Part shown: positions 12,440-36,900 of the stretch, in pieces
Layout: every line of letters begins with the position of its first letter
How positions within the stretch are numbered: the stretch's first letter is position 1
From: Varroa destructor
Lineage: Eukaryota; Arthropoda; Arachnida; Mesostigmata; Varroidae
DNA: 64,000 nt
Direction of reading: 5' to 3'
Assembly: GCF_002443255.2 (NCBI RefSeq)
Contig: NW_019211459.1
Location: 25,935,388 to 25,999,387, forward strand
Translations under genes and position numbers: made by a program
The notes under the pieces: model-generated
Told to the model about the DNA's origin: nothing
Database searches by the model: none
Seen by the model: only the letters and a program-made list of their open reading frames with translations

Positions 12440-13016
12440 CGACCCCATTCAAGCGGGAGGGCGGACGAAAACTGTGGCGGAGAGTTCTTTCCTGGGGGCC
12501 ACTAGCAGCCGAACGGCACATCGAGTTTTGCCTTTACCCTTATCAAGCTCGCTCGCGTCTTTCTCGACCACAGCGATGAGCACCGGCGTATACCTGTCGT
12601 GACGGCAATGTAGATCAGCGGACGACCACCGACAGACCACAATTTGCAAGAAAGCCTTTGCTTGGGTCGATGGTTATTGATGGTATAGAACCCTTGGGGT
12701 AAAGGGACGCAACAATCGACGTCAAAGAGGAGAGGGTTTACAACCAGAAAAACAAGCTAGCAATGGCCATGGCCATGGCAAAATTTAATACTACAAATGT
12801 CAGATGAAGCGGCCACAACAGGAATTCGCTACTCCAGCGGAAATAGCAATAGAATTAGAAAAAGCCTGCTGAGAAGGTAGGCGGAAGGACCAGCGAGAAA
12901 GGCGACAACGAAAACCAACAATACCAGGGTCCGCTACATTCCGCTCTACCGCTTTGTCTGTCTGTGTGTTTGTCCGAATGTATCGCTCGTCGGAGCGTTA
13001 CCCCTCACAGGACAAG
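12440..13016 (+). promoter_or_regulatory. Putative promoter and 5' untranslated region of the Na,K-ATPase beta gene
   Basis: GC content rises clearly from about 12440 and stays raised through the start codon at 13017. Open frames here on both strands (for example 12171-12649, minus) look like consequences of base composition rather than genes. No TATA box is evident. The transcription start cannot be placed from sequence alone. An in-frame upstream ATG at 12978-12980 has a weak context (C at -3), so it is a less likely start than 13017. Confidence 0.4.
12763..12779. promoter_or_regulatory. Triple GGCCAT palindromic repeat
   Basis: ATGGCCATGGCCATGGC is a set of overlapping palindromes about 240 bases upstream of the start codon. 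It carries several copies of GCCAT on both strands, which is the core of YY1/Pleiohomeotic sites. Binding is inferred only. Confidence 0.3.
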
Positions 13017-13024
13017 ATGGCGGC
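13014..13024 (+). promoter_or_regulatory. YY1/Pho-like site overlapping the start codon
   Basis: AAGATGGCGGC matches the well-known consensus for YY1 (Pho in flies), which in many animal genes sits just downstream of the transcription start and often covers the initiator ATG. Here the ATG within the motif (13017-13019) is the proposed start codon, and the context ACAAGATGG is also a good Kozak sequence. Confidence 0.45.
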
Positions 13025-13056
13025 CGGGTGTCCGGTGAACCGCTGCTGCTGCAACT
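13017..13056 (+). CDS. Na,K-ATPase beta exon 1 (start codon)
   Basis: Encodes MAAGCPVNRCCCN plus one base of a Cys codon, ending at a consensus donor (GTGAGT, phase 1). The ATG has A at -3 and G at +4. It is linked to exon 2 by phase and by completing a cysteine codon, giving NRCCCNCG. Reading through the donor would give 48 unrelated residues to the stop at 13160. The assignment to this gene rests on phase, strand and proximity, not on homology. Confidence 0.6.
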
Positions 13057-16000
13057 GTGAGTGCGAAAAAGCAGCCTGTTCCCGCAGAGCCCGAAAGAGG
13101 CTACTGGAAACGATAGCCACAACAGGAGTGGGAGCAGGCCCCAAGTGGGGCCGACAGTGAGCGGGGTTGGTGATGAACTATGAAAACTGCTGTAGGCGGC
13201 TCAGTAAAAAGAAAAAGAGTCGGCAAAAAACCAAGTTAGGAGAGTGAGTTGTGAAGAAAGAAGACCGACCACTATGAAGAATTACGGAAGTTACGAAATG
13301 GTCGAGTATGCGTGCTATGCGCGAGCATGCATTTGTGAGCCATCTGTAAACCACCTCGAGAGGGATAAACTGTAGGGGAATTAGATATTGTGGAGCCTTG
13401 TTGGACAGAAAGTTAGCTTCGACGCAGCTCAAATAAATAATTAACTCTGGAAAAAGACACGTTTCGAGCGACGAAGAGTAGGCTGGTTTTTTATACAGCA
13501 GATTTACGCGGTGTCTTTTGTCTCTTCGGTGTTCGGCATCCGGCAGTGGCGGTCACCATATCCACGTAGGTGTGGTGGTTAGAGACAACAACGCGGACGG
13601 TTGCTGTTAGGACAAAAACAAGCTTCGATGTATCACTGTTTGTGCTATCAAAAGCAAACAGGAAATAGAGCAAGGCAAAAGGACCTCGGCACGAGTGGTG
13701 AAAGTGGAGCACGTTTAAGAGAACAGGAGTGTCGGCCGTCGAAGGCAGGACCGGAGCAGTTAGAGCTCGGAGCGATATTTGGAAAAAGGACAAGCAAGAC
13801 GAATTGAGTGAACGTGGAGTATTTGATAAAAGAGGCAGTTTCGAGACGAACGAAGGTGAGTGTTAATGAACATTCACGGTATACTTAAGATAATAGCTGC
13901 AGTTAATTTATTTAGGCCCGGCGATCTGCCGGGCAGCGGTTGAGGTGCACGAATTACCGATTAAGCTCTATACGTCGTACAACGAGAAACCAATTTAAAT
14001 AAACGGCACGGAGCATATGTAGCATATAAAAAAGAAAAAGAAAAGTTGGTTTCTCGAAATACAAGTTTCTCAGATACGAGAAAAAGTTTGCGGGGATTTT
14101 GTCTCACCACGTGTTTGAATCACTATCGAGACTCATATTACAAGACTACAAATGGCAAAAGCCATACTTTGTTTAAAAAGTAGCGCAAAACGACCTGATA
14201 TTTTCAGAGTGTTGTTCGAATTGTTCGTACGCGAACAACTTAAATAACCACTCTGAACTCGGGCTTCAAGCCTTCCATACTTAAAGGCCGATAGCGCCTT
14301 TAAAGGCTCGTAGAATCACCGATATGATTCACATGGCTCTATCTTCTCCCATACAAACGAATAGGATTATCATATAAGTATGTGTGCTGTGTATGAACTT
14401 ATGGGAAAAAATCCTGATTATAATTATCTTGGAGCATGAAAATACGTTTCATATACGTTTCGTATAGGCCGCTCCTGATTGAACCGGCAAAAAGTACAAT
14501 GGAACGCGCCCCTTAGATCAAAGCTGCCACTCCTGAACTTAGCAAATTGCCCTTAAGCAGTCGCACACGCCAAACACCTACTTCGGGACTTCTGCATTCC
14601 GAACCTAAAAGAAAATCCTTTATAGTCCAAACAAAGTTATGGCCATTTGGCCTGATCAAGTAGATCAAAAGCTTTCCAATACCCTACAGCTTTATCAGCC
14701 ATTAGCAGACGAAACATGGAACGACATTTATCAGAAGCACGTTACTAATTAGTCTTCCTCACTTTGTCCTACCTGTTATCGACTCGTGCACTCATGCATT
14801 TATTTTTTTGTTTATCTATGTATCTGCTATTTAGGTGGGGCAGGTGGTTTCGAGTTCTCGTCCAGACACGACTGGGCGGCCTCTGCTGGGGCCGTCCCCT
14901 TCTGGCCTCCTGTGCCGCTGTCGGCTCGGCCGGGCGATGACTGGCGCCCCGGCGGCGTTGGCGGTAGTGCGCGAGCTGAAGCCGCTGCAGCTGATGCTGC
15001 CGCCGCCGAAGGCGCACCTCACATTGAGCTCCAGCCGCTGGGGCCGCAGCGGCCGGCCCCCCAGCCGCCGGCGGCGCCTCCAGGCGCTTTCCAACACCAC
15101 CCACACCATCAACAACATCATCATCACCATCATCATCAGCACCACCAACAGCAACAGCATAGACAACAAGGCGAACGCTACCCACGACATCACAGTGCCG
15201 CTGGAGGCGGCGGAAGCCATCACGGCGGCCATAGCGGGGTCTACCGGGGTCACGCATCACAGTCGGGCTCGTCATCGACGACACAGGCGCCCCACGCGAA
15301 TCATTCGCCCGGCCGCAATCACTCGTCCAGTCGGCTGCAATCTTCTTCCAACACCACGCACAACACAGGTGGATAAACCTGAATATGACCGGGTGAAAGT
15401 GGGGTCATATGGGACGGTTTTTGCGTCCCCGTGATGGATTAGTGGTAATGTGTTCGCTTACTAATCGAAAAAATATAGAAATAGTTTAGGCTCGAATTCG
15501 GGTTTTGGCGTAGTTGGAAGCATGAGTGAAAATCTGAGCAATAGGCGAAGCTATGATGAATATAGTCATGATTCGTTGTTGCTCAGTCCCCACCGATTTT
15601 CCGTAGTAAGCGTTACCTACGTTGACAGGTCATAGGAGCAATGGTAAGCGGCTTTATCAAGGTCTGTCCTATATGAAACCACTGAACTCTCGGCTATGGA
15701 AACTAATAGAGTTATTATAGAATCGATTTAATGACTCAGGTCGTACGTATATAGGCATACATACATACATACCGGTGATAAGCTCGTTCTAGTTGGCTTC
15801 GGCAACAATTTTCTGAATAATCCTATACGTACTTAGAAATCTCTTTGTCAAGTAACCCATATGACCGATCTGTATTTCAGCTGTATATATATCAATTACA
15901 ATAACAAAGAAAATATGTTTCTGTGTCACGCACAGAGTGGTTCTAACGCCGATGACGCTATTCTACAACAATGTCATTTTTAATTGTTATAGGCGAAAAA

Positions 16001-19000
16001 AATCTGTAGCAATAATTTATAAGTTATCGTCAATTCCTACTGAAATGCTACAAGGTTTTAAAAGCTCTGATACTAACTGTTAGTGTTTTCACTTTTCAGC
16101 TTCTTGGGATAGGTGGCAATTTTGGGACGTGGATACTGCTACAGCATGCTTCTGGCAAGCGTCCGTCGTTCAAGATTCGCTGGCTGCTTCGCTTGAAGCA
16201 GCGGAAGATATTGATGGACGCAGTATCACCGAGCACTATCATCCCAGCGATAATGACGCTTTTAAGGTATCTTTGCCAAAACCTAGGTATTGAACTATAG
16301 TAAAAGAAAAAAAAAACTGTTGTCTCAGTGCTTCGTGCTTGAAAAATGACAACTCTTGCTAAAGGAAAAACATAATGATATACTCGAGTGTACGATACAA
16401 ATTTATTTGATTTAAGGACCGGTTTCTTTATCGTCAAGATGCATCGTATCAACGGTCAACGTGAAGTACATATATTTGTACATATCTACAGTAAAACAAC
16501 CAATAACCATGTCATCTGATTACGCGGTGCACTAGCTGGACTTGTTTTATGTTAGTTTTCTAAAACAACAACTGCCACTAGGGCTAAATCTATAACATGT
16601 TTTGGCCGAAATCACAAATCAGCCCTGACACGGCGGCAATAGACGCCAGCCTTATTCAGACACTTCAGACGACTTGAAACGTCTCTGGACTGTTGTTATT
16701 ATTATCAGACTAGATAGGGCGATATTTTGCGAACCGTTTACCGCCCTCTGCTAGACATGGCATAGTGCCATTGCTACGTATCAATTACTGCCACGATTTC
16801 AGGTGATCCCGCCATGCCCGGACCTAGAGTTATTGGATGCGTGGCCTGGTCACCCAAACGATGCAGGTTATTATTCCTGCTGTTGCAGCTGCAATCGCTT
16901 GTCCACTCCGAGCGGTCGGGGATTTGTTCGTTCGCTACGCATCTGCTGTTTGGCCCTGGCGGCAGTCATCTTGATAACCGTATTGACTGGTCTGGTGGTC
17001 TTCTACCCTCTGGGAGGCGGTGAACTTTTAGAGCTCAAAAGCTATCATGGCCTGGATAGATTCCTACGACTGCATCCGACGCCGAAGGGGAAGCAGCTTC
17101 TAATACATTACAAGTGGGTCCATTTATAGGTGAAACACACAGGGAGGGCGTCATTTACAAACTGGCCTAACGAGTAGGATAAGACTTTGTGTCTCTGAAA
17201 TTATATCAACGACTAACATAATAACAATGTTATATTGCTATATGCATGAAAATCCACTGAGAATACTATATTCTTAGTGGATTTTCATAGATTTATTTCT
17301 CACCCGTCTCTACAAAACTTAGCCAACTTGTTATTTGAATAATTAAATAACTTCCAATAAGAAGATAACTGCAATTTTGCACTTCGAATACTTTCGGATG
17401 TCGCGATATGTCACGATACTGTAGTACCACATTTAGATGAAGACGATGCTAAAAAGTCGATGCTCGATCAAAATGCTACCAAAAATTGCAGAGACCATTT
17501 CGTCTAATGTTGTCAGCCAACCGGCCTTTCGTTGGCTTTCCCAGCACTAAATAGTTTGTTTGTTTGTTTGTTTGTTAGATGTTTTTTTACTCTATTTGCT
17601 GTTATTAGTAACGCTCAAAGGTGATCTATATACACCTGTTCGTGCAGCGCGCACGTCTCTACTAGGAGCATTTACCTGTTTCGTCCAAATAGTACAGAAC
17701 ACCCTCAGTAATCTTCAAAAAATACGTAAGGTCCAATGAATTAGGACGCTCTAAGCAGCCTATCATCATCTTAAGTGAATAAATAGATTTTTATATACAT
17801 AATATCAATGCCATCATTTTATTTTAACTCAGACACGGTGCCAGCGAAGGCGACGCGTTAGACTGGCGAACTTTCGTGAGGGAGTTGGATGAGTTGTTGG
17901 CTAAGTACGATTTGGATAGGGCCCTTGGAAATCCCAACCTTACAGACTGCTCCTCCGCCTGGCCGCAGATTAAGCGGCCCGATAGGCACAAACAGTGCCT
18001 CTTCGATATACGACATATTGATAGGTAAATATAGTCTATTTACACTGTGTTATAGTAGTAGCAGCAGTACCCATATAATTATGTCTAGCATAATTAAATC
18101 AATCGAAAAAAGAAATTCCAATGACTGTATAATAGATACCGGTAGATTGTCAAACGCCATCTGTCGCGTTCCGTGCGTCGTGATACGAGATATTCGGTTA
18201 TATGCGTATTCGTGCAGACTCAATTGTGGACGCACAAGGTGCCCTTGAAACAATCATACTTCCTAATAGAAATTAATAGCATTGAATAAGTACGCACAAT
18301 CAGTGGTCACATCGTGCCATTTCATTGTCCCAATAGGGAATGCAGCTCCGGAAGTAATTATGGTTACGACCGGGGCAAGCCGTGCGTGTTTCTTCAGTTC
18401 TCGTCAGCACAGGACTTCGAGCCACGTGTTGTCGAGGGATCGGACACAGTGGCTGTCGACTGCTTTGGCAATACGGTTGTTGATCAGGAGAACATGGGCA
18501 GTCTCGTTTATACACCTGATCCCGGATACAAGGTGCGCAGATGATTTTGATAAGATAATATTTTCGCATAAGATAATTCCGTCACACGTTCATAGGTACA
18601 TAGATAGGACTGAATAGGGTTGAAGTGTTTGTGTTTAGCTATTGGCCAACATAGCTATATATATATTAGTACGCAAGATCATTTACTAAAAAGGTGGCTT
18701 TGTCCGTGCACCTGGTCAGTTACTAACCGAATGACAAAACGACTCACCTCGCAGCTTGAAAAATTACTCCTTTTTTGAATTGTGAAATTCATCGTTTCGA
18801 AAGATAGTGTGAAGTATTCGAGCATCTACACTGGGTTAAAGCACTAAACCTGGCTCGCTCGTTAATTATGCTTCATATGCCCCATCTATTTCGTTGTCAG
18901 TTAATCCTTCCACAAGTTAAATGGGCTTCTATCAACGAGTAGTACACGTTCGATTTTGCAGCTGGTGTACTTTCCCGCCGGACCTAACCCACCGTACATG

Positions 19001-19189
19001 CCACCGCTTATCGCTGTACAGTTCGTGCAACCCACGGTGGGCGTCGCGATCGGCGTTACGTGTACTATTTATTCGAGTCCCAGCGAAGTCGGCGGCGGCA
19101 TAGGGATAACGACAGGTAATAATGCCTCGCGTGACCCTGTTAATTACTGGGATCGTAAACAGGTGCACTTCAACCTTCTCATCGAATGA
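13017..19189 (+). CDS. Na+/K+-transporting ATPase subunit beta (nervana-like), whole gene, seven coding exons
   Basis: This is the beta chain of the plasma-membrane sodium pump. It helps fold, deliver and stabilise the catalytic alpha chain, and beta chains also act in septate junctions. Coding exons are 13017-13056, 14835-15368, 16100-16266, 16803-17113, 17833-18024, 18337-18532 and 18962-19189 (1668 bases, 555 residues), and every junction keeps frame. Residues 1-293 are predicted cytosolic, about 294-315 form the single membrane span, and the rest is ectodomain. The ectodomain has the normal length of about 240 residues and keeps six cysteines for the three family disulfides, YGYDRGKPC, YMPPLIAVQF and a C-terminal VHFNLLIE. 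NLTD and NNAS are glycosylation sequons. The N-terminus is exceptionally long for a beta chain. The TM segment lacks the usual Phe/Tyr-rich motif, so this is a divergent paralogue. Introns (1778, 731, 536, 719, 312 and 429 bases) hold a tRNA-like sequence, a 20-pair hairpin and short tandem repeats. No clear poly(A) signal was found nearby. Confidence 0.9.
14835..15368 (+). CDS. Na,K-ATPase beta exon 2 (low-complexity cytosolic extension)
   Basis: A 534-base GC-rich exon with acceptor TGCTATTTAG and donor ACAG/GTGGAT, phase 1 at both ends. In the chosen frame it gives about 178 residues: an Ala-rich run, a Pro-rich stretch, a His/Gln block (centred on residues encoded at about 15097-15170), then Gly/His/Ser-rich sequence ending SSSNTTHNTG. 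A second acceptor at 14844 is in the same frame, so nine bases may be optional. A second plus-strand frame (14835-15434) is also open throughout. The chosen frame is the one that joins exons 1 and 3 in phase. Minus-strand frames here are composition shadows. Confidence 0.65.
15425..15510 (+). other. tRNA-like sequence in intron 2, probable pseudogene or SINE head
   Basis: A D-arm-like TGGATTAGTGGTAATG is followed by an anticodon-arm shape: TTCGC, 7-base loop TTACTAA, TCGAA (four of five pairs; loop would give anticodon ACT). After a long variable stretch comes a B-box-like GGCTCGAATTC. The T stem and acceptor stem do not pair properly, so it is not a working tRNA gene. Confidence 0.25.
15756..15771. 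repeat. (CATA)n microsatellite
   Basis: Four tandem copies of CATA in intron 2 of the beta-subunit gene. Confidence 0.85.
16100..16266 (+). CDS. Na,K-ATPase beta exon 3
   Basis: A 167-base exon with acceptor TTTCACTTTTCAG and donor AAG/GTATCT (phase 1 in, phase 0 out). Encodes 55 residues starting SWDRWQFWDVDTATACFWQA and followed by an acidic, Ser/Ala-rich part ending HYHPSDNDAFK. It is the only exon found that brings the phase-1 end of exon 2 into the phase-0 start of exon 4. The 118-codon minus-strand frame over it (16096-16452) is a shadow. No family match is recognised for this cytosolic piece. Confidence 0.7.
16803..17113 (+). CDS. Na,K-ATPase beta exon 4 (juxtamembrane and transmembrane)
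   Basis: Acceptor CGATTTCAG, donor CATTACAA/GTGGGT (phase 0 in, phase 2 out). It encodes a Cys cluster (YYSCCCSCNR), then a basic stretch (RSLR), one hydrophobic span of about 21 residues starting ICCLALAAVI, and the start of the ectodomain. That part (YHGLDRF, PTP, LLIHYK) corresponds to the region of beta subunits that normally reads like GL.P.P and IWYK. Read-through past the donor stops within 16 bases. Confidence 0.88.
17246..17288. other. 20-pair foldback in intron 4
   Basis: Arms 17246-17265 and 17269-17288 are exact reverse complements except for one G-T pair, with a 3-base loop (CTA). It is far longer than chance hairpins in the window. It could be a MITE-like foldback, a small-RNA precursor or a recent inverted duplication. 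The 3-base loop is short for an animal pre-miRNA. Confidence 0.85.
17555..17576. repeat. (TTTG)n microsatellite
   Basis: Five tandem TTTG units in intron 4 of the beta-subunit gene. Confidence 0.9.
17833..18024 (+). CDS. Na,K-ATPase beta exon 5
   Basis: Acceptor TTTAACTCAG, donor GATAG/GTAAAT (phase 2 in, phase 2 out). Encodes WRTFVRELDELLAKYD, matching the helical WxxxxxxLDxFLxxY region of the beta ectodomain, then an N-L-T sequon and the first disulfide pair (TDC ... KQC). The last residues lead into the second pair, which is completed in exon 6. Confidence 0.9.
18337..18532 (+). CDS. Na,K-ATPase beta exon 6 (signature exon)
   Basis: Acceptor TTGTCCCAATAG, donor AAG/GTGCGC (phase 2 in, phase 0 out). 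Encodes REC then SNYGYDRGKPCVFLQFS, the most conserved stretch of beta subunits and the second disulfide pair. It continues to AVDCFGN (first half of the third disulfide), DQENMGSLVYTPDPGY. The family equivalent is a C..G....D.ENLG.I.Y.P..G segment. Confidence 0.96.
18962..19189 (+). CDS. Na,K-ATPase beta exon 7 (terminal)
   Basis: Acceptor CGATTTTGCAG, phase 0. Encodes LVYFPAGPNPPYMPPLIAVQ, equal to the YFPY....Y..PLVAVQF block of the family. Next comes VTCTIYSS carrying the last disulfide cysteine, a Gly-rich insertion with an NNAS sequon, and the C-terminal WDRKQVHFNLLIE before TGA at 19187-19189. Confidence 0.96.
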   Translation: MVYFPAGPNPPYMPPLIAVQFVQPTVGVAIGVTCTIYSSPSEVGGGIGITTGNNASRDPVNYWDRKQVHFNLLIE

Positions 19190-33900: not shown

Positions 33901-36900
33901 TGACGCATTATGGAATACCGGCCGAAGAATCCACAAAGCATGGCTACCATTACGAGCGCATTCGTCAGCCTTGAAGTACACCGTTGTATTTTTAAACACG
34001 CCCAGAACACAGCCGCATGCGCAGTACCTGGCCACCTGCGTGTTTAACAGGAGAATAGAATGAAGATAAAGAACAACACCATTTCTTTTATTTACATTAA
34101 TCGTCTAATTATTGATGATATGTATATCAGCGTTGTTTGCTGTTTCGTCTAACTAGTGACACAACTAAATATTATGTTATGTTTCGAATCGTGCCTTTTC
34201 CGACAGGGCCGTGGACAACAAAAAAGCAGAGCGCGCACCTGTCCAAGGTCGACGTCAGGTGGCAGCGTGGTCGACGAAGAGGGACATTTGTCGGGAAGGT
34301 CGCACTCACGCGACTCGATACGTTCGCCCCGGCATTTCTTTTTTGAACAGCTCCTGTGTCGCATCTGGCTACCTCTGCCGCATCCGCCACTACAAAATGT
34401 CCACGGCGTCCACTCGTCCCATTCTCCGTACTGAGATGAATCTGCCTCGAATAGGATGCCAGAGAGAGGTTTCGTAAATAACCTAGGTGGCGCATAGTTT
34501 CACGAATTGCTAAGGCCTCTATGAAAGTGAATGCATTATAATTCAATGCAGATGGCGCAATCAATGCGTAGGCATGAGTCTAGTCTTCCGCTTCGACTCA
34601 CCGAACCACTGTATGTATCCTTTAGTAATATCTGCACCCATTTATCGGCTTTTCGTCAAAACGAAAACTCCTTGCTACTGCGACTATCATTATTACTGTG
34701 AGTCCTTGAACCCAGATTGACGATGATGATGATGATACGTAGGGTAAGTACGTTCGAAAAAATTATGTATCAAACGACTCTCACCATCTTTGACGGGGCG
34801 GCAATGAACCTCTACCGAGTGAACGGCCCCATTGTGCGCAGTGCTCACGTAGTGAAAGCAAAACTTGCTAAAGGGCCCATCAAAGTGGTGACAGCCGAGA
34901 TTGATTGCGTGGCGTTCCTTGTACAGCCGTTTCTCCATAATATACGTCTCTGTTCCGGTAGCTTCGCTTAATCCGTATATTCGAAGACGATCCTGACTTC
35001 CCGAACAAGGTGGGTAGTGATACGCCACATTGATACCTGCAAGGAACCAATAACTCAATTAAATTCACAATATGTACCTAGCTAAATGAGGAAGAAAAAA
35101 AGCAGTACTCATGTTGTCTCGCTGTTGCGAAGATTCAACTCAACTTTTGCTTCGCCTTGCCAAGTAACAATTTGGGGGGGGGGGGGGGTCAATTTAGGGT
35201 CAACGGTATATGTTTCGCTGTCTATGTGTAGCCATGCCAAGGCCTGATTATAAGAGCGCGCATGCGTATTCTAATTGGAACAAAATACTTAACTTCTCAT
35301 TGTCGATGCAGTATATACAGTACAACGATATGTACAACGTTTGATAAATGAAATAAGCCAGAAGACTGTCCGAGCTGCCCCTAATTTTATAGTGTGCCCA
35401 TATTCAAGGCCTCTCGATCCAAAGGGTTCACAAACAGCGTGGAATTCATTACATAGTGTGCAACTGTGTGACTATCAACCGACTGTGCATAGCCCGTCTG
35501 TCTCTGATGCGATGAACAGCTACGGCCGTAAAAATAAAAAGTATCCCAAATGTCTATAAGATATGTACATGCTGCACAAATCAGTATTGAATGCCCCCGT
35601 TCACTAATTTATTTCTGGAAGTTGTCGGCATTGTCAGTAGGGTCGCTAATAATATTATAAGGCCAACTCGGCTAAAGGGCGCATACGACCATCAACGAGT
35701 CAGTTTGAATATAGCTACACCTGCGTTTTACTATCCAAAAACGATAAGGACATCGGCTAGTTTTCAGATTGCCTACATAAACAAATTCGCTGTATAGGCC
35801 TCACTGCCGTCATTAGCTTTTGTTCTACTACTGTTATTATAATTACGAAAATACACCTGTAACTTTGTAAAGGACTGAAGATTCCTTGAACAATGTTTAC
35901 ATATAATTATTTAAAAAACCTGAAAAAAAAGAAATGAACAAATGGATTGAATTAGGAATAGCTGTGTCCTGTACTGCAAGTACCACTTTCGTTTAAGCAA
36001 AGGACAAAGTTACTTAATCAACTCAAAAATAAGGAGGACTTTTCAACCTGCCTAGTCATTTTACTGTTATCTTACCGCGGTCATGTGGACCGGAGCGGCT
36101 CATCGTATGTGATCACATGTTTATATAACCTGCTTGTGGATCCCTAAGCCCGTTTGCTTATAAAATCATCTTCACGATGAGAATTAGATAAGTAATTGCG
36201 CTAACATTGGCCGAAGGCAGTTTCACACTCTTGAAACGCCGAGGGTGAAGCGATAGGTTACATCTGAAACTTCATGCCTGGTTGTGGCGTAATTTTTCAT
36301 TGGAATTTTCTAATTGGTACGTATAGTACTAGGATCACTGAAAGAAACATTTCTCATGCACATTCTCTCACAGCTACTGGTGCTTACCATCAAGACATTG
36401 TCCGATAAATTTTTGCGCTACACTTATCGAATATTGCCCACTCCATTTTGCTTGAATAGAGAGGCTTCGGGCAACTTCCGACAACAGAGTCTCGCAGTCG
36501 TCACAGTGCAACGATACCTAGAAAGAACAGTCCCCAAAGGAGGGATTATAGTTAGGTATTAATTATTCGATATAATATAGTATCGCTTTTGTCAAGATCT
36601 CATCAAAGCTTTCCATGTTGGACNNNNNNNNNNNNNNNNNNNNNNNNNNNNNNNNNNNNNNNNNNNNNNNNNNNNNNNNNNNNNNNNNNNNNNNNNNNNN
36701 NNNNNNNNNNNNNNNNNNNNNNNTATATATACAAAATGTGACACCTTTGCTTGCCTTTAAACAGAAACATGCGTTTTAACGAATTTTGTTAATAGACGTG
36801 TCATCTTTGGCGGCCATATATATTCAATATAATTACTATTCATAAAAAGTATGACTTTAACTTGGAACTGAACCTTTCACTAGTCAAAACATCCCCTTCT

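Follow-up and report, generated by a model that had tools for sequence, protein, structure and literature searches.

The beta chains of the Na,K-ATPase are usually seen as partners of the alpha subunit and carry a short cytosolic tail. A locus in Varroa destructor, a parasite of the honey bee, raises the question of whether the exons preceding the one for the transmembrane (TM) helix of such a chain can add a long cytosolic arm in the same frame. The locus lies within a 64-kb stretch of genomic DNA (hereafter, the window, meaning the whole stretch analysed), for which a preliminary description had proposed a beta subunit with a cytosolic N-terminus of about 290 residues. The present analysis upholds the long arm on a beta-family chain and adds to its support; the proposed first exon and the roles suggested for the arm cannot be kept in their original form. 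The explanation that best covers the observations as a whole, and which we hold to be probable without being firm, is a Na,K-ATPase beta-family protein that crosses the membrane once. It would be a separate paralog of the more canonical beta gene in the genome, with its arm read in a 555-codon frame and bearing a putative Trp-rich docking block.

The gene model was re-derived from the seven exons proposed, which reproduced exactly one frame of 555 codons (1668 bases) with all six introns being GT-AG. Seven exons give six junctions, where seven had been counted, and the coding exons continue to 19189, beyond the end at 17000 given for the gene. In the 555-residue product, to which the residue numbers below refer, the TM helix begins at residue 292 and is preceded by 291 residues, which agrees with the length claimed for the arm. 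The agreement of phases along the exon chain had been taken as strong internal support, and here it is weak. The GC-rich exon 2 has two open forward frames (207 and 199 residues from stop to stop) and one open reverse frame (211 residues), and an in-phase exon chain could therefore be luck. Since phase alone is insufficient, relatives were sought, and the decisive support for the frame of the arm is comparative.

Three protein searches yielded 3 matches out of 7996 sequences scored, 2 out of 3001 and 5 out of 7998, or five different proteins in total, among which no arm-bearing relative was found beyond the two termed here P0001 and P0002. A scan of genome contigs for the DNA of relatives gave 50 pattern matches and no relatives. 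P0002 is a protein of 454 residues encoded by an uninterrupted frame of 454 codons on a contig of 2389 bases. It has, in that one frame and in the same order as the window gene, an arm with a His run, the Trp-rich block SWDKWQFWDLETGLPCFWQA (SWDKWQFWD...CFWQA), a TM helix and a beta ectodomain, the arm being shorter than in the window. As its frame is unbroken across the intron positions of the window, the contig most simply represents a spliced transcript. When the three frames of exon 3 were compared to P0002, the 555-codon frame scored 136, a value reached by none of 500 shuffles, and the other two scored 22 and 18; for exon 2 the corresponding scores were 90, 31 and 29.

The other arm-bearing relative, P0001, is the gene model BIW11_09554 of Tropilaelaps mercedesae (617 residues). 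It is 83% identical to the window protein over the shared beta part when a 57-residue insert is left out, and exons 2 and 3 are recognisable in it. The deposited model nevertheless differs in taking exons 2 and 3 in the +1 frame, in reading into the exon 4 acceptor (FQV) and in having the insert at the exon 5/6 junction. The genome report describes an annotation built from MAKER, RNA-seq transcripts and ab initio predictors (PMC5467014), and the model was thus not made without RNA evidence. The two frames make different predictions. Were the +1 frame coding, its second codon position, which is the third (wobble) position of the 555-codon frame, should change least. In exon 2, P0001 forces 19 changes at the first position of the +1 frame and 46 at the second; in exon 3 the counts are 5 and 21. 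The sums are 24 at the second position of the 555-codon frame versus 67 at its third. In exons 4-7, which served as a true-frame control, 31 forced changes fall at the first position and 24 at the second. Neutral simulations under four mutation rates reached the observed fraction in 0 to 7 of 500 runs for exon 2 and in 2 to 18 of 500 for exon 3. Codons compatible with an identical residue in the 555-codon frame amount to 112/131 in exon 2 and 48/55 in exon 3, with no forced stop. This concentration of changes at the wobble position of the 555-codon frame indicates that the frame has been kept by selection between Varroa and Tropilaelaps. On these sequence comparisons, exons 2, 3 and 4 are read in the 555-codon frame, which is also that of P0002, and the arm encoded upstream of the TM exon has the support of two relatives. 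The deposited Tropilaelaps model is probably misread in its exon 2-3 frame, its read-through of the exon 4 acceptor and its 57-residue insert.

Membership of the beta family rests on the product of exons 4-7. Residues 337-519 match PF00287 (Na_K-ATPase beta) with an E value of 8.5e-24 and 84.6 bits against a curated cut-off of 23.3, covering profile positions 78-267 of 284. Among solved structures, the closest to the ectodomain is the beta2 chain of 8k1l (E value 4.3e-20), which we take to be the Na,K-ATPase beta2 of Artemia, a chain of 336 residues as opposed to 555. The protein has one strong hydrophobic stretch within residues 286-320 (approximately 292-316), and the sequons at 386 and 534, both beyond the TM helix, would fit a type II orientation with glycosylation. 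In the Na,K-ATPase beta ectodomain six Cys form three disulfides, and the window protein has the same number beyond the helix (390, 406, 417, 431, 457 and 514), for which pairing is predicted. The N-terminal part of PF00287 includes the aromatic TM residues that face the alpha subunit, and this part (about positions 1-77) is not matched by the window protein. The match of P0002 also begins at position 78, and those of P0003 and P0004, two other beta chains of which the latter is from the mite Oppia nitens, begin at 76 and 68; the N-terminal part of the profile is hence often missed.

The arm is rich in Ala, Ser, Gly, His, Pro and Gln; the Ala/Pro/His/Gln/Gly-rich composition described previously is borne out, with Ser abundant as well. 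Only 18% of its residues are order-promoting and no usable structure model was obtained, from which we infer that it is mostly disordered. Conservation along the chain is uneven. Over aligned positions, identity between the window protein and P0002 is 41% both in exon 2, where 92 of 177 positions are gapped, and in exon 3. It rises to 70% in the Trp-rich block (14/20), drops to 20% in the TM helix (5/25) and lies at 56-77% by piece after the helix. Whether the arm is conserved, a check that had been proposed, therefore has a divided answer: exon 3 and the Trp-rich block are conserved, whereas exon 2 is heavily gapped and arm length varies. The Trp-rich block, which the preliminary description did not mention, is better conserved than the TM helix. 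The His run, earlier suggested to bind metal, has seven residues in the window and six in P0002, in differing surroundings and in arms of different length. This difference would fit a spacer better than a fixed metal site, although two sequences cannot decide the matter, and metal binding is a predicted possibility only. The tethering of the pump and the part in its assembly that had also been suggested are likewise hypothetical.

Between the start of exon 2 and the TM helix the frame contains no Met. Translation therefore needs to start upstream, and it is here that the model probably needs revision. Donor sites were ranked with a simple matrix over 3648 GT sites on the plus strand. The site at 13855 (AAG|GTGAGTGT) ranked first, and the site at 13056, the end of the exon 1 proposed earlier, ranked 93rd. 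The frame preceding 13855, ELSERGVFDKRGSFETNE, also ranked first among 374 open phase-1 sites for likeness to residues 1-14 of P0002 (score 24, with the next unrelated place at 21), and 13056 ranked 372nd. The exon at 13017-13056 consequently has no comparative support and is probably wrong as the start of the main product; it is possibly an upstream open reading frame (ORF) or an alternative splice site. The start codon more likely lies within the exon that ends at 13855, or upstream of it, than at 13017. An in-frame ATG is also present at 12978, upstream of the ATG at 13017. The first Met of P0002 aligns with a TTG at 13804. None of the 17 AGs in 13690-13803 that might act as an acceptor to bring an upstream exon into the 13804 frame has a pyrimidine share above 0.5, as compared to 0.64-0.79 at the six exon acceptors. 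An upstream ORF from the ATG at 13628 (MYHCLCYQKQTG...; window 13628-13807) stops at 13805-13807, overlapping the TTG, and re-initiation or a non-AUG start is possible there. A start at the TTG would give an arm of approximately 295 residues by count, similar in length to that of the 555-residue model. With a TTG where P0002 has its Met, no plausible acceptor and no in-frame ATG, the start may involve a non-AUG codon, a further exon, a sequence difference or the splice proposed earlier. The exon layout is given in Table 1.

Table 1. Coding exons and features of the beta-family gene in the Varroa destructor window (coordinates are those of the window).
Feature	Coordinates	Strand	Basis or remark
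Preferred 3' part of exon 1 (leader exon)	13702..13855	+	Frame open from 13702, ends ...ELSERGVFDKRGSFETNE; strongest donor
Exon 1 of the preliminary description (MAAGCPVNRCCCN)	13017..13056	+	In frame in the reproduced model; no comparative support
Exon 2, low-complexity arm (Ala/Pro, His/Gln and Gly/Ser tracts)	14835..15368	+	Translation, relatives
Seven His codons in a row, within exon 2	15116..15136	+	Sequence and translation
Exon 3, cytosolic, conserved	16100..16266	+	Score against P0002, codon-position test
Trp-rich block SWDRWQFWDVDTATACFWQA, residues 193-212 of the 555-residue model	16102..16161	+	14/20 identical to P0002
Exon 4: last cytosolic stretch, TM helix (~16935-17009), start of ectodomain	16803..17113	+	
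Exon 5, ectodomain	17833..18024	+	
Exon 6, ectodomain	18337..18532	+	
Exon 7 with stop codon, end of ectodomain	18962..19189	+	

Elsewhere in the window, an open frame on the minus strand (34696-35058) matches the Pfam THSD1 third immunoglobulin-like domain (31 bits, cut-off 27), the only one of 20 long ORFs scanned to score above a curated cut-off. Rfam and tRNA scans of the window found nothing.

Several observations weigh against the explanation that we favour. The exon 2 score against P0002 was reached by 11 of 500 shuffles, hence part of that likeness reflects biased composition. P0002 is known here from its protein only, and its contig could be an intronless copy instead of complementary DNA. 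The deposited Tropilaelaps model is in another frame for exons 2-3 even though its annotation drew on RNA-seq, and it switches frame relative to the window at P0001 residues 43-48; the latter suggests a 1-base length difference near 14874-14885, so that exon 2 would begin with ~16 codons whose frame differs between the two species. At the 5' end, the 13855 frame was the top match in a tblastn search of the first 15 kb with the first 30 residues of P0002, with a modest E value of 0.41, and the frame contains no ATG back to its stop at 13699. An AlphaFold prediction of P0002 with 5 sequences had a mean predicted local distance difference test (pLDDT) score of 38, which is not a usable model, and the docking role of the Trp-rich block is a prediction that names no partner.

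Three other explanations can be set against these data. It is highly improbable that translation fails to link exons 1-3 with the beta chain, the exons belonging to a leader or some other product and the beta chain starting elsewhere. The further open frames of exon 2 and the frame used by the deposited Tropilaelaps model would suit this arrangement, but it has to contend with a stretch from exon 2 up to the TM helix that holds no Met in frame, with the presence of arm and beta chain in one frame in P0002, and with a codon-position test that favours the 555-codon frame. More weight can be given to the model as first drawn, in which translation starts at ATG 13017 and the donor at 13056 joins 14835; this donor might be an alternative 5' splice site in the leader exon. 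We nonetheless consider the model unlikely. The ATG is in a good context (ACAAGATGG), the donor is GTGAGT, and the start gives the full 555-codon frame. Across the 14.75 kb upstream, just 7 pairings of an ATG with a donor, 13017/13056 included, have the required phase and a donor score at least as high as that of 13056; the exon preferred here, moreover, has no in-frame ATG. Against this stand the low ranks of 13056 in both the donor and the likeness comparisons, in which 13855 came first.

The strongest of the three, yet still one that we doubt, is that the arm is translated and mostly passive, a repeat-rich filler that binds no partner itself and is attached to an otherwise ordinary beta subunit of the pump. 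Its Ala, His, Gln and Gly tracts, the gaps at more than half of the exon 2 positions relative to P0002 and an ectodomain far better kept than the arm are all as such a filler would have them. What speaks for the docking-block explanation instead is that exon 3 and the Trp-rich block are better conserved than the TM helix, and that changes in exons 2 and 3 alike concentrate at the wobble positions of the 555-codon frame.

If the favoured explanation is correct, most of the arm would be a disordered spacer of variable length, and the Trp-rich block, situated about 80-100 residues before the membrane, would be a putative docking site for a cytosolic partner, in effect a binding patch held away from the membrane. 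The ectodomain, with its six Cys and two sequons, would fold like those of other beta chains and may either pair with an alpha subunit or act at cell contacts. The arm could then link this ectodomain to a cytosolic scaffold or trafficking adaptor.

An exon-by-exon PF00287 search of the assembly to which the window belongs (366.2 Mb, 112 contigs) gave 6 matches grouped into four loci: the window gene, one locus on C1 and two on C2. As the search sees individual exons, four loci is a lower bound. The C1 gene (C1:20917613-20924919, minus strand; L007, L010, L011 and L015) has recognisable TM, middle and last exons; its N-terminal exons were searched for and not identified. The exon matching profile positions 32-107 encodes an aromatic-rich TM segment, TIFYIIFFICLAAFW, which includes FYIIFFICLAAFW, unlike the TM helix of the window protein, LRICCLALAAVILITVLTGLVVF, which has no Tyr. 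From its sequence, the C1 gene looks like an ordinary pump beta and the most canonical one in the genome. The C2 pair, L008 (minus strand) and L009:3286-4836, lie ~175 kb apart and resemble the window gene in that a translated arm of more than 190 residues precedes a hydrophobic segment and a beta-like ectodomain. The measured arms, of 202 and 194 residues, are rich in Pro, Ser, Gln and Thr, and in one copy the arm is followed by a gap of 100 N. Over 184 codons, the two arms differ at 43 first, 27 second and 113 third positions, and the arm is very probably translated. The window arm shows no similarity to the C2 arms (best E value 3.6). Each C2 arm contains PPPY, a motif that the window protein lacks, and in L008 the TM segment and ectodomain lie in one open frame, unlike in the window gene.

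One genome thus holds two dissimilar kinds of beta-like chain with translated arms of more than 190 residues alongside a more canonical beta gene, which makes a scaffold or signalling role of such chains testable. A bolder proposal, offered as speculation that we think unlikely to hold in full, is that the mite lineage evolved long-armed beta-like membrane proteins, the C2 pair apparently independently of the window gene. These would not be plain pump subunits: their beta ectodomain would form a head of adhesion or receptor type, and their cytosolic arm would mediate interactions (through the Trp-rich block here, PPPY in the C2 pair). The window gene would start at the non-AUG TTG 13804 overlapping the stop of the upstream ORF.

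How far do known systems resemble this gene? A literature search, judged by titles and the beginnings of abstracts, found no work on long-armed arthropod beta chains, which is not proof of absence. Vertebrate ATP1B4 had been named as the only beta-type chain with a notable N-terminal extension. This was too narrow, given the two long-armed C2 paralogs in the same genome and the beta chains P0003 and P0004 (the latter from Oppia nitens), which have ~83 and ~90 residues before the TM helix and suggest that arms exceeding a few dozen residues are no rarity in this group. The literature does offer precedents, by analogy, for beta chains with functions beyond service to alpha, in BetaM and in insect beta paralogs. 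Eutherian BetaM, the product of ATP1B4, is described as a beta-family chain that acquired an N-terminal domain of more than 100 residues, and this domain as sufficient for several reported interactions (PMC4778017). BetaM/ATP1B4 has Glu-rich clusters and an Arg-rich nonapeptide, features that the window arm lacks; the latter is Ala/Ser/His/Gly/Pro/Gln-rich with a Trp-rich block, and only 9 Glu occur among the 291 residues before its TM helix. Among insects, beta3 and beta-x of Oncopeltus are paralogs reported as separate from alpha and considered alongside septate-junction proteins, and beta-x is given as N-terminally truncated, the reverse of the window gene with its extended arm (PMC9110512, PMC12125057).

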